Source: Methanogenium sp. S4BF (GTDB lineage Archaea > Halobacteriota > Methanomicrobia > Methanomicrobiales > Methanomicrobiaceae). Taken from it: a stretch of 64,000 nt of DNA. Each line of letters opens with the position of its first letter. Within the stretch, counting starts at the first letter, position 1. A model generated the notes under the pieces. It searched no databases, had not been told where the DNA came from, and saw only the letters and a program-made list of their open reading frames with translations. The translations under genes and the position numbers were made by a program. This document shows, in pieces, positions 43,814 to 48,797 of the stretch. The stretch is from positions 1,733,940 to 1,797,939 of the forward strand of contig NZ_CP091277.1 of the NCBI RefSeq assembly GCF_029633965.1, read 5' to 3'.

Positions 43814-44434
43814 ATGTCTTCTCTCGATGAACTTATAGGAAAGGCAAAACTGCTGCATTCCGAGGGCCACAGCCCCAGCCAGATCGCTGATGAACTCTCC
43901 CTCTCGATGGAGACCGTAACCTGGCTTCTGACCCAGCAGAAGGATACCGAGGCACCGAAGGATATCCACATCAACTGGACCGTCGTCGGCGGAAATGCGG
44001 ATATGCTGCGTGACGCGGCACTGCTCCTTCTCAAGCGGTATTACTACGGCGAGGCGGACGCACGGGACTGCAGCCTCACCGATATCCCGGCACCGGAGCT
44101 GGTTGTGGGAGTCGCCCACTCGGGCATTCCCCTTGCAACGATCATTGCGGCCGAGGAGGGGGCGCAGTTCACCATGTACCACCCGAAGAAGCATGCACAG
44201 GGCGAGAATCCGGTCGGATCCATCTCAGGAAACTTCGCACAGGTGCAGGGCAGGCACTGCCTGATCATTGACGACGTCATCACCTCCGGCAACACGATGA
44301 AGGACATCATCAGCCACCTCAGAAACCACGGGGCAGTCCCGGAAGCAGTCTGCGTCCTCTTCAATAAAAGAAATATCCGGGAAATTGACGGCGTCCCGGT
44401 ATTCAGCCTCTTCCAGGTCTCCCGGATAGACTAA
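43814..44434 (+). CDS. gfcR: GfcR-like PRTase-fold transcriptional regulator
   Basis: A 206-residue protein joining an N-terminal helix-turn-helix ([17 protein letters not shown]) to a phosphoribosyltransferase-like domain with [11 protein letters not shown] and the PRPP loop [13 protein letters not shown]. This is the archaeal PyrE-like family once called orotate phosphoribosyltransferase-like and shown in haloarchaea to act as the sugar-metabolism regulator GfcR. Here it probably senses PRPP or a related metabolite. Its place behind prs and nob1, 27 bases on, suggests one transcript and a link to PRPP level. Confidence 0.88.
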
Positions 44435-44449
44435 AAACCTGACCCGCAT

Positions 44450-45691
44450 TCAGGGCACAGGTATATTCGTCATCCCTTTCTTTTGTGGAATTTCAGATTC
44501 CGCTGGTGCGGGCCGCCCTGACAGGGGTGACCCTCCACCCGATATACCTCCCCCCGGAGATTTCTGCAGGATCACCTCCGGAGAGTGGAATCCAACAGCA
44601 CGACGGATTATTTCTGCAGCATACGGTTTCCCCGCAATAAACAGGCCGGTCTCATTGTTAATGAGGGCACGCTGATACTTCTCCGCCTCCGTGTAGTATG
44701 CAAATGCACGGTGCATGTGGTTCATCCGGTAGAACTCCGGCAGGTTATCCACAGGACCTCCAACCGTCAGATTCCGGCAGACAGGGCAGTCACAGAAATC
44801 AGAGAGCGGACGCCCCTCCCCATAGTACTCCTCCATTTTTTCAAAGGTGTAGGTGCTGTAGTCACAGGGTGCAAAGTAGCGGATAGTCTTCACCAGATTA
44901 GCCCTCTCCTCCCCTTCCATCCGGGAGAGAAGGTCAGCGAAATACTGCCGGACATGATCACTCAGGGCAATGGTATTGACGGTATCCACCCCAAACCAGT
45001 TGATAAGCATCCCCAGCGTACCCTGGTTCTTCACCTCATGATACTGGAGAGGGGCAGAGAATGCATGCACCCAGATGTCCCGCTTCTTCAGCCTCTTACG
45101 CACCTGATAGAGCAGGGGTTTGTCCAGACGGCGGCAGTCGATGCCTATGCCTCCCAGCTGCGGGAGATAGCGCTCCAGCATCGCGAGATCAGATGCTGTA
45201 CGGGCAATACCCATCAGCGGTGTTTCACTCCACGTATTCTGCTGCCACTCCAGTGCTGCCTGCACCGCCCGTTCATAGGCATGCGTATCGCAGAATGGAC
45301 GCGGAATCTCAATTACGTTCGCACCCGCCCGGTACTGGAGACGAAGCAGGTCGACAAATGATTCTTTCGGGAGCCCCGCAACGTCGGTAAAGAAGGTGTA
45401 ATGCAGCAGTTTGGCAGGGGACTCTATCCGGCGCATCCGCTCACAGACGGCATCCTCCATCGCCTCTTTTTTCTCCGGGTGCCGGCGCATTCGCTCAATA
45501 TCTGATCGATGCACCCAGAGATCATATTCACCCACACTGGTGCGGCACCGGGGATCAACCGGTGCATCCCCCATCGCATGACATCCAATATCTGACGCCA
45601 CATAGGCCGGCGTCATTACATGGCCCCCCCCAATGTCCAGCACCCCCTGCCGGCCATTGAAGTCATCCACTTCAACAACAAATGATGACAT
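44450..45691 (-). CDS. TGT-superfamily protein lacking the catalytic nucleophile (copy 1)
   Basis: A 413-residue relative of archaeal tRNA-guanine transglycosylase. The opening strand block GVLDIGGGHVMTPAYV, the FTDVAG segment in the place of the VDSGSF active-site loop and the zinc motif CDCPVC with a following NHMHRAF match the fold. In ArcTGT the nucleophile lies in GVDLFDSAS; here the stretch reads GVDTVNTIAL, so that Asp is Asn. The substrate-binding Gly loop is also changed. It therefore probably does not exchange bases by the classical route. A Pro/Gly-rich C-terminal tail of 30 residues is extra. A second, shorter copy lies upstream. Confidence 0.7.
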   Translation of the reverse strand: MSSFVVEVDDFNGRQGVLDIGGGHVMTPAYVASDIGCHAMGDAPVDPRCRTSVGEYDLWVHRSDIERMRRHPEKKEAMEDAVCERMRRIESPAKLLHYTFFTDVAGLPKESFVDLLRLQYRAGANVIEIPRPFCDTHAYERAVQAALEWQQNTWSETPLMGIARTASDLAMLERYLPQLGGIGIDCRRLDKPLLYQVRKRLKKRDIWVHAFSAPLQYHEVKNQGTLGMLINWFGVDTVNTIALSDHVRQYFADLLSRMEGEERANLVKTIRYFAPCDYSTYTFEKMEEYYGEGRPLSDFCDCPVCRNLTVGGPVDNLPEFYRMNHMHRAFAYYTEAEKYQRALINNETGLFIAGKPYAAEIIRRAVGFHSPEVILQKSPGGGISGGGSPLSGRPAPAESEIPQKKGMTNIPVP

Positions 45692-45716
45692 CTAATTCAA
45701 CAACATGTGATGACAT
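45671..45716 (-). repeat. Tandem duplication of the start region
   Basis: Two 21-base copies 25 bases apart (45671-45691 and 45696-45716) match at 19 positions, and each contains an ATG TCA TCA start-like sequence on the minus strand. The upstream copy opens a 14-codon frame, out of frame with the gene, that overlaps the true start. Confidence 0.55.
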
Positions 45717-46024
45717 GGAAACGAACATATATATAATTAATTGACCAAAAACACGCATTTTATCCACAAAATGCGATACAGATAAATATTATGTACAAAT
45801 CAGGACATTCAATTTGAAAACAAGACTGCACAGGAAAAAACCGATCCAATCCACCCCACGGATCGGCAAATATCAGGTACAAGGAGACACCGTCCGGTCA
45901 GATATGGGGGGCAACCTTCGCGACTGCGGCGAAAGACACCGCATCACCCATCTCTGCAGCAAAAGGGCAGTGCAGGGATCTATCACCACCATTGTACTGC
46001 AGAAGCTTCCGGCAGAACGGCCGG
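45692..46024. other. Gap between the two TGT-like genes
   Basis: This 333-base stretch contains the promoter of copy 1 (AT-rich TATA at 45727-45738 on the minus strand), the inverted repeat at 45754-45775 and the duplicated start region. If copy 2 once had a zinc domain, its remains should lie here, but I could not recognise a CxCxxC motif in any minus-strand frame. Confidence 0.45.
45754..45775. promoter_or_regulatory. Perfect inverted repeat CGCATTTT-N6-AAAATGCG
   Basis: An 8-base perfect inverted repeat with a 6-base spacer sits about 16 bases upstream of the TATA box of the TGT-like copy 1 gene. This is a typical place for an activator or repressor site. Confidence 0.5.
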
Positions 46025-46906
46025 TCATACTACTGCTGAGCGCTGGCGCCGCTCACCAGAGCGCCGTTCCGGTCCTCTCACGGAGGAGGCGCAGGAAGCA
46101 CCAGATAGACAGGGACGGATCTCATTCACAATTTCATGACCTTTCCCACCCCCGATGCCGGAAAGCGTGGTGGAGAAATGCTGCCTGACATGCTCGCTCA
46201 GGGTAAGGCTGCTGACAGTATCCACTCCAAACCAGTGGATGACCATCCCCGGCATCTCCCGACCATGCATCCCAGAGTATGAACAGGGAAACGAGAATGC
46301 ATGCACCCGGACATCCTGGTGCTTCAGCTTCCTGCGAACCAGATAGAGAAGTGGTTTGTCCAGACGGCGGCAGTCAAGGCCAATGCCACCCAGATGCGGC
46401 AGATACCGCTCCAGCATCATGAGATCATCAGCAGTTCGGGCAATACCCATCAGCGGGGCTCCACAGCCGGTATGCCGCTGCCACGCCAGTGCATCCAGAA
46501 CAGCCTGTTCATACATCCCTGTAGTACAGTATACCCGGGGAATCTCAACCACACCGGCACCCGCCCGGTGCTGGAGGAGGAGCAGAGCGGTTAAGCTCTC
46601 CTGACGCAGCCCCACAACATCGGTGAAGAAGTTGAAATGCAGCAGTCTGACGGGAGAGGGAAGCCGGTTCATCCGCTCACAGACAGCATTCTCCATTCTC
46701 TCTCTCTCATCCGGGTGCAGGCGGAGACGCTCGCCATCCATCCGCCCGAACCAGAGATCACAGACACCGGCATCCGGAACATTCGTCACCCCACGACAAA
46801 ACCCATCCGGCGGTATATAGGCAGGAGTCCTGACACTGGCGCCACCCACATCAAGCACACCCTGCCGGCCATGGGCATCATTCACCTCCACAACAAATGG
46901 TGACAT
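46025..46906 (-). CDS. TGT-superfamily protein, truncated and without nucleophile (copy 2)
   Basis: About 293 residues, clearly homologous to copy 1 along its first 265 residues. Shared blocks include GRQGVLDVGGA, FFTDV.GL, GIARTADDL, GGIGLDCRRLDKPLLY and FGVDTV. At the nucleophile position it has Ser (GVDTVSSL). After NEIRP the sequence diverges into an Arg/Ser-rich tail and stops, so the zinc-binding C-terminal part is absent. It may be a decaying duplicate or a trimmed partner that dimerises with copy 1. ATG at 46906 is preferred over 46927: it matches the N-terminus of copy 1 and lies about 30 bases after ATTATAATTAAT, fitting a leaderless transcript. Confidence 0.6.
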   Translation of the reverse strand: MSPFVVEVNDAHGRQGVLDVGGASVRTPAYIPPDGFCRGVTNVPDAGVCDLWFGRMDGERLRLHPDERERMENAVCERMNRLPSPVRLLHFNFFTDVVGLRQESLTALLLLQHRAGAGVVEIPRVYCTTGMYEQAVLDALAWQRHTGCGAPLMGIARTADDLMMLERYLPHLGGIGLDCRRLDKPLLYLVRRKLKHQDVRVHAFSFPCSYSGMHGREMPGMVIHWFGVDTVSSLTLSEHVRQHFSTTLSGIGGGKGHEIVNEIRPCLSGASCASSVRGPERRSGERRQRSAVV

Positions 46907-47154
46907 AGACAGATCATTTACGCACACATATTAATTATAATCGGCTGATTTTGTGATTGAATAAATGAATACATATTGACATTGCCGAAGAGCATTACTC
47001 TCGGAATCGTGTCTGCACACGGGAGCACAGCCGGTCGTCATTTAGCACGGCACAAACAGCACCCGTATATTTTTGGAAAAAAACAGTCGCATATCGTCAC
47101 CATACTTCATCCTGATCCCCCAAAGATGCATCTGCCCTGAGCTCAAACACAATG

Positions 47155-47207: not shown

Positions 47208-48797
47208 ATGTTAGCGGGACAGCCAATTATTATATTACGGGACAATGTAGACCGCATTGGCGGCAACGAAGCCCAGAGATCCAATATTATGGCGGCCAAA
47301 GCAATCGCTGAAGCCGTGCGCACCACCCTCGGCCCACGGGGAATGGACAAAATGATGGTCTCCTCATCCGGAGATGTGGTCATCACCAACGACGGTGCGA
47401 CCATTCTCCACGAGATGTCAGTGGAACACCCGACGGCAAAACTCGTCGTCGAGGTTGCTGAGACCCAGGACAATGAAGTCGGAGACGGCACCACCACCGC
47501 AACGATCTTCATCGGCAGTCTGATGGAGCAGGCGGAAGCCCTCCTCAACCGGAAAGTTCACCCGACAGTCATCGCAAACGGATACCGTCTTGGTATGCAG
47601 AAGGCGATGGAGGTCATCAATGAACAGGTCATCAAAGCCGACGGAGAGGACCGTGAAATGCTCATCAAGGTCGCAGCAACCGCTGTTACCGGAAAGTCCA
47701 TTGAAGGTGTCAAAGACAAGATCACCGGCATTGTCGTCGATGCCGTGCTTGCAGTCGCCCGGAAGGATGAAGACGGAAAGTACACCGTCGATGAGGATGA
47801 CGTCCAGATCAAGACGATGGTCGGAGACCACATGGAAGACGCGGAACTGCTCAGGGGATTCCTCCTCGACAAGACCCGTGTCCAGCACTCCATGCCAAAG
47901 CGGCTCGAGAATGCAAAGATTGCCATGCTCTCCCAGCCACTTGAGGTGACAAAGACCCAGGTGAAGTCCAAGATCAAGATCACCTCCGCAGAACAGATGG
48001 AGGCATTCAGCGTGCAGGAGAACGAGACACTCCGTGCTATCGCAGAAGAGATTGTAGCCTCCGGCGCAAACACCGTCTTCTGCCAGAAGGGCATCGCAGA
48101 CGCCGTCCAGTACTACCTCGCAAAGGAGAATATCATCGCCATTCAGGACGTCCCTGAATCCGACATGAAGAAACTCTCCCGTGCAGTCGGCGCAACCATC
48201 GTGAGCAAGCCTGAGGATCTCACAGAGGAGACCCTTGGCGAGGCAGGCCTCATCGAAGAGATGAAGGACATCACCATCACCAAGATCACCGACTGCAAGC
48301 ACCCTCACACCGTGAGCATCCTCTTAAAAGGCACCTCACAGGTCTTCATCGACGAGCTCGAACGCGGCGTCTACGACGCAGCCCGTGTCGTGATGGATGC
48401 ACTTGAAGACGGGGAGTACCTCGTCGGCGGTGCCGCCATCGATACCGAACTGATGATGAAGATCAGTGAGTTTGCGGCAACCCAGGAAGGCAGAACCCAG
48501 CTGGCAATCGAAGCATTCGCCCGGATGTTTGAGGTTATCCCCTACACCCTCGCGGAGAACTCAGGCTTTGACCAGATTGACAAGATGGTCGCCCTCAAGG
48601 CGGCACACGCAAACGGCGAAAACCACGCCGGCCTGAATGTCTTCACCGGCGAGATCATCGATATGTATGCAGAAGGCGTCATCGAGCCCGCCCGTGTCAA
48701 GCGGCAGGCAATTATGTCAGCGACCGAGACCGCTGCACTCATCATCCGTGTCGATGACATGATGATCTCAAAGAGTGCATCCCAGATGGGAATGTAA
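47208..48797 (+). CDS. thsA: Thermosome subunit (group II chaperonin)
   Basis: A 529-residue thermosome subunit, which assembles into a double-ring ATP-driven folding chamber. The equatorial ATP site shows [13 protein letters not shown] and the catalytic GDGTTT; the helical-protrusion and apical domains follow. Unlike many archaeal subunits, the C-terminus ends in SASQMGM without a Gly-Gly-Met repeat tail. The frame is open upstream to 47073, but the family start [10 protein letters not shown] and the AAGGAG ten bases before place the start at 47208. Clear TATA box upstream and a T-run terminator downstream: monocistronic. Confidence 0.96.

Follow-up and report, generated by a model that had tools for sequence, protein, structure and literature searches.

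Two paralogous genes between gfcR and the thermosome gene

The window analysed here is a stretch of 64,000 nucleotides from Methanogenium sp. S4BF (contig NZ_CP091277.1). It carries two genes on the minus strand whose products resemble TGT transglycosylases. Copy 1 (44450–45691) has an ATG start and encodes a full-length TGT-fold protein of 413 aa without the nucleophile Asp. Copy 2 (46025–46906) is a paralogue that ends after the barrel and has no zinc part; it comprises 293 aa from its ATG, or 300 aa from an alternative GTG start at 46927. The two proteins are 54–58% identical over the part that they share. On either side of the pair lies a gene on the plus strand, a gfcR/pyrE-like gene (43814–44434) next to copy 1 and a thermosome gene (starting at 47208) beyond copy 2.

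M. marinum DSM 15558 and M. cariaci JCM 10550 are among the relatives of this genome within the genus. Orthologues of copy 1 occupy the same genomic place in three other Methanogenium genomes, and most of the other genera that were checked show the gene order nob1-gfcR-thermosome without a family gene. The genome that contains the window also has the normal genes for archaeosine, an intact tgtA adjacent to an intact arcS (G000:C1, 681971–685001).

A perfect 8-6-8 palindrome, CGCATTTT-6-AAAATGCG (45754–45775), is found ahead of copy 1, just upstream of a TATA-like stretch. It occurs once in the genome and was considered as a possible operator. An earlier note on this DNA had taken such promoter features as a sign of regulated copy 1 expression. 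The palindrome is absent from the six sister genomes, so we rejected it as a conserved operator, and the proposal of regulated expression was not borne out.

Descent from TGT and the replaced nucleophile

Library searches gave little indication of the origin of the two proteins. Copy 1 scored only 10.7 bits with the Pfam TGT model (PF01702), compared to a cut-off of 26.3, and copy 2 had no match to it. Neither protein matched anything in NCBIfam, PADLOC or PHROGs, and a PDB sequence search with both gave no usable match. A comparison of profiles was more informative. We aligned six Methanogenium sequences globally (hhalign) with a profile built from 35 diverse TGTs of the same archaeal phylum and obtained an end-to-end alignment with a score of 48.7 (95.6%). 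Forty column-shuffled control profiles scored 3.0 ± 2.1 (maximum 8.5), and the reversed profile 3.6. With more family members the value rose to 98.9%, and a ten-member family profile matched TGT with a local probability of 97.7%.

Structure prediction gave a consistent picture. When TGT rows were included in the alignment, AlphaFold placed the family protein in an eight-stranded barrel with a zinc region (pLDDT 70.7, pTM 0.74), and all 50 PDB matches listed by Foldseek were TGTs (E ~1e-9 to 4e-8), one of them a chain of the mouse TGT heterodimer. A model built from the six Methanogenium sequences only folded poorly (pLDDT 46.6) and found no TGT in Foldseek. The fold is thus partly guided by the alignment, and it is supported but not independent. 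Judged by the profile score against shuffles and by the TGT-guided fold, copy 1 and copy 2 are distant TGT homologues, and the scaffold seen in the earlier note is confirmed for both. We also considered an origin from ArcS and rejected it, since the local match is limited to the first 35–40 residues and the global score to ArcS is 32 versus 49 to TGT.

The replacement of the nucleophile was examined in alignments with TGT, ArcS and DpdA-like proteins. The family motif GVDTV(N/S) and GxDxFD(S/C) can be aligned gap-free, so it is secure that the Asp has become Asn in copy 1 (codon 239 in GVDTVNT, 44975–44977, minus strand) and Ser in copy 2 (codon 232 in GVDTVSS, 46211–46213, minus strand). The match leaves no alternative in which another Asp would take the nucleophile position. 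The first Asp of the motif, D236 in copy 1, is kept in all aligned sequences. A family search, which the earlier note had proposed, found the Asn/Ser replacement in all 11 intact members, from several genera and two orders. The known TGT mechanism passes through a covalent ribosyl intermediate that neither Asn nor Ser can form, so that base exchange of the usual kind is not to be expected. The column is Asp in all aligned TGT and ArcS rows, and L131, an intact DpdA-like protein, has Asp there as well. In this respect the family is distinct from TgtA and DpdA-like enzymes, as had been claimed. In Z. mobilis TGT, the nucleophile is Asp280 (PMC6165067).

The other parts of the active site are changed to different degrees. 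The general acid/base Asp of the TGT DSG motif seems to be kept in most members as D103 of copy 1 (45383–45385, minus strand), judging from hhalign and MAFFT local-pair alignments. It matches in nine of the ten members tabulated and is Ser in one, but the motif reads TDV instead of DSG, and the alignment is method-dependent: one MAFFT alignment (A4) moves D103 by several columns, which makes this site less certain than that of the nucleophile. The substrate loops, whose glycines the earlier note had called altered, are changed: VQGG of TGT is replaced by GIART and IGAV by GIDCRR. For the base-recognition Asp (Asp156 in Z. mobilis), the alignment is ambiguous among E128, R131 and P132, and the base-pocket residues differ between subfamilies. 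The zinc site C300-x-C302-x2-C305 ... H327 of copy 1 (44711–44794, minus strand) comprises the same four residues as in TGT and ArcS and is kept in all full-length family members. Copy 2 and the matching M. marinum copy end before these ligands, in agreement with the earlier observation that copy 2 lacks the zinc part, and no credible remnant of it was found in a shifted frame downstream. Invariant residues are concentrated at the barrel strand ends (32/47 versus 38/159 elsewhere, p = 5e-8; 1 of 206 rotations reached as high a value), with strand segments hand-picked on the TGT alignment.

Compared to TgtA (TIGR00432/PF01702), the family has retained the N-terminal FxVxxxDxxGRxGxLxxGxxxxxTPA motif, the (beta/alpha)8 order, HxFS/G, GxD and CxCxxC...H. 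It differs in the Asn/Ser nucleophile, the changed loops, an identity of 14–20%, the absence of C-terminal domains and library scores below the cut-offs. ArcS is likewise a TGT-derived paralogue in the same genome with a similar N-terminal motif and zinc site; however, it keeps the nucleophile Asp and has extra domains. The synthase C-terminal domains of ArcS (NF040592) are absent from the family proteins, which end after the zinc region. The family proteins gave no match to the DpdA models (NF041059, PADLOC) and do not display their Asp motifs.

The DpdA-like L131 (1420–2541, G439) is a stand-alone TGT of 373 aa whose scores do not reach the equivalog cut-offs of TgtA and DpdA. Its C-terminal region is similar to that of the family and among intact TGTs it has the top score with the family profile (36.5 bits), but both Asp motifs are kept. 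It joins the tree between long branches, and we claim no nearest relative. L131 possibly represents another TGT subfamily; it comes from the archaeal family coded f9.

Distribution, selection and decay

Full-length genes occur in four of the seven Methanogenium genomes. A fifth, from a sister species (G006), harbors a pseudogene remnant of about 50 residues with a stop and a frameshift, and in the other two (G004, G005) there is no recognisable family gene. A restriction to Methanogenium was suggested at first, but it was overturned when 393 genomes of the phylum were scanned: three genomes, all of one other genus, proved to contain full-length relatives (E 1e-64 to 1e-71). This genus is probably Methanosarcina; a short stretch with an 86% match to a Methanosarcina vacuolata plasmid was found there beside a transposase gene. 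The family gene is present in 3 of its 31 genomes and absent in 28, with Ser, Ser and Asn at the nucleophile position. When the class was scanned with the enlarged profile, two remote members turned up, both with Ser, in two further Methanosarcinia families. The scans with the full profile covered part of Archaea only, at one genome per species. We treated weak matches at three loci (L040, L041 and L043) as chance, and a fourth (L042) proved to be ArcS and not a family member. No relatives of the family were found in viruses, phages or plasmids, and the same holds for the partner protein described below. The family forms one clade (support 100/100) apart from TgtA, ArcS and L131.

The earlier note had named an alternative to a retained function, namely that the pair consists of decaying duplicates restricted to this strain. 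The restriction did not hold up, as members occur in several genera and under purifying selection. Decay does take place in parts of the family: a third copy in M. marinum is reduced to an N-terminal remnant, and there is the decayed pseudogene of the sister species. Together with the two Methanogenium genomes that have no gene, these remnants are what one would expect from relaxed duplicates without function. However, the frames are open and full-length in four Methanogenium genomes and in three of another genus, and the same substitution is kept in distant clades. The orthologues of copy 1 are only 60–71% identical, compared to 90–95% for a neighbour such as gfcR, but their dN/dS of 0.24–0.35 (upper confidence limits 0.35–0.60) is well below 1 and shows that copy 1 is constrained. 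The two truncated copy 2 genes of the window and M. marinum also differ with a dN/dS of 0.32 (CI 0.22–0.45), and for the probable Methanosarcina members it is 0.15–0.20. Functionless decay is thus largely refuted for copy 1, and as an account of the genes we regard it as very improbable. The distribution of the family is patchy, and it is under purifying selection.

Copy 2 clusters with its M. marinum counterpart, which is truncated in the same way (support 84–92); this implies that the duplication predates the split of the two species. The sequence of M. cariaci JCM 10550 (L004/L015) has extra single Gly or Pro residues beside G or C runs in several genes, and its tgtA is split. This looks like assembly error, and the sequence was weighted lower.

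Linked genes and a probable binding role

At all three probable Methanosarcina loci, a gene for a protein of about 110 aa lies tail-to-tail with the TGT-like gene, overlapping it by 4–10 bases (L132 8536–8877, L133 8632–8979, L134 2654–2986). The protein has no significant Pfam, NCBIfam or PHROG match. Among 24 searched genomes of this genus, the partner gene is present in exactly the three family carriers and in none of the 21 non-carriers; the chance of this co-occurrence is 1/2024 if the genomes are treated as independent. A comparison of the three loci showed similarity over the ~1.4 kb of the two genes only, the flanks being unrelated. One of the loci lies beside a MatE transporter gene, with a transposase nearby. 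The occurrence of the same cassette in different surroundings suggests a joint function of the two genes. A diverged paralogue of the partner, standing by itself, was found elsewhere (L146, G518:C5 17000–30501) amid genes for a tyrosine integrase, a replication protein, a glutaredoxin-like and an ATPase-like protein, surroundings that are probably an integrated mobile element. A search for the partner gene at the window pair and in all Methanogenium genomes gave no hit.

The linkage bears on the idea that the family protein is a non-catalytic partner of the host TgtA, aiding tRNA binding as a dimer through its zinc region. The closest functional precedent is QTRT2, in which the catalytic Asp is replaced and the zinc domain is kept and which is needed for activity; it has Glu and Cys at its two catalytic sites (PMC6165067). 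An intact tgtA next to arcS in the same genome is also in line with such a role. However, TgtA was found in 34 of 40 archaeal genomes sampled and the family in few, the family gene was never seen adjacent to tgtA, and in the probable Methanosarcina it is tied to another gene. In addition, tgtA evolves slowly (dN/dS 0.05–0.06) compared to the family. The genomic evidence speaks against a pairing with the host TGT, and we consider a QTRT2-like partner decidedly unlikely. The heterodimer of copy 1 and copy 2 suggested in the earlier note found no support, as single-copy species exist and copy 2 has no zinc region.

The two remote members have different neighbours. Both lie directly behind a gene for a Panacea-like protein, and these two proteins are 34.8% identical to each other. 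Their match to SocA_Panacea is confined to the C-terminal half and stays below the cut-off (E 0.004 and 0.055; 18.5 and 14.8 bits versus 25.7), and they match the PADLOC defence candidate PDC-M19A more clearly (E 5e-9 and 4e-10). Panacea domains are antitoxins that pair with dozens of toxins (PMC8832971); the word transglycosylase does not occur in that paper. No Panacea-like gene is present at the Methanogenium and probable Methanosarcina loci.

An antitoxin-like neighbour would fit a family with new chemistry, in which the second Asp hydrolyses an N-glycosidic bond, as a glycosidase or as a toxin damaging RNA or DNA, and the linked gene acts as antitoxin. D103 could still support some chemistry, as it seems to be retained in nearly all tabulated members and the pocket strands are strongly conserved. 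However, one member has Ser instead, the base-pocket residues vary between subfamilies, the Methanogenium genes have no partner, and a tail-to-tail order is unusual for toxin-antitoxin genes. We thus consider this reading unlikely.

For one remote member, and in one genome only, queC was found a short way upstream, on the same strand and with ends that overlap. The run (L145, 9089–11925, one strand, in a Methanosarcinia genome) consists of the TGT-like gene, a DUF4258/zinc-ribbon/Panacea-like fusion and queC. This recalls Cap10 of type IV CBASS, a TGT-family protein in a defence operon that, as outlined in PMC11996544, is remodelled to bind a deazaguanylated N-terminus and works with the QueC-like Cap9. 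By analogy, the family could be a component of a 7-deazaguanine-based modification of protein or nucleic acid that binds a deazaguanine-tagged partner. However, the family proteins match neither the TGT nor the DpdA models of PADLOC, and the queC product has canonical motifs (SSGLDS, Cx8CxxCxxC) and, to judge from these, may be an ordinary preQ0 synthase. No CD-NTase or partner with an N-terminal Gly was seen, and no CBASS genes (CD-NTase, Cap9) were recognised around the window pair or at the inspected loci of relatives. The family also lacks a match to Cap10 at the sequence level. A Cap10-like role is improbable in our view.

The best explanation, to which we give about even weight, is an undescribed methanogen-related TGT-fold family that has lost the nucleophile and base exchange, is under selection, and serves as binding subunit of a mobile, probably conflict-type module. 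The barrel would still bind a ligand without exchange, be it nucleic acid, a 7-deazaguanine base or the tail of a partner protein. The protein would be the recognition subunit of a small, horizontally moving module, with the ~110-aa protein as partner in the probable Methanosarcina and the Panacea-like protein in the remote members. In Methanogenium, the protein stands alone between gfcR and the thermosome gene, where a duplication left the barrel-only copy 2. Because the pair in the window has no partner gene, applying the module idea to it is extrapolation, and the window is not accounted for by a two-gene module; the two genes may have been acquired for a function of their own. That the family represents a class of TGT-fold effectors or sensors without nucleophile in new mobile two- or three-gene conflict modules (toxin-antitoxin or antiviral), possibly acting on tRNA or via 7-deazaguanine, is possible but rather doubtful. 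By analogy, the family most likely works like QTRT2 or Cap10 without being either. Taken as a whole, the reading of the earlier note is partly supported; the relatives in other methanogens and the genes linked to them had escaped it. The family protein has probably become a binding component of a module involved in conflict or regulation.

Eukaryotes are known to have inactive TGT relatives (QTRT2), and in a bacterial antiviral system a remodelled TGT has recently been described (Cap10). New here are the tail-to-tail cassette of the probable Methanosarcina and the Panacea-like and queC neighbours of the remote members. The consistent replacement of the nucleophile in an archaeal clade that is selected and linked to partners suggests that TGTs have been repurposed again. 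The cassette defines a testable gene pair, probably within Methanosarcina, for which genetic tools exist.
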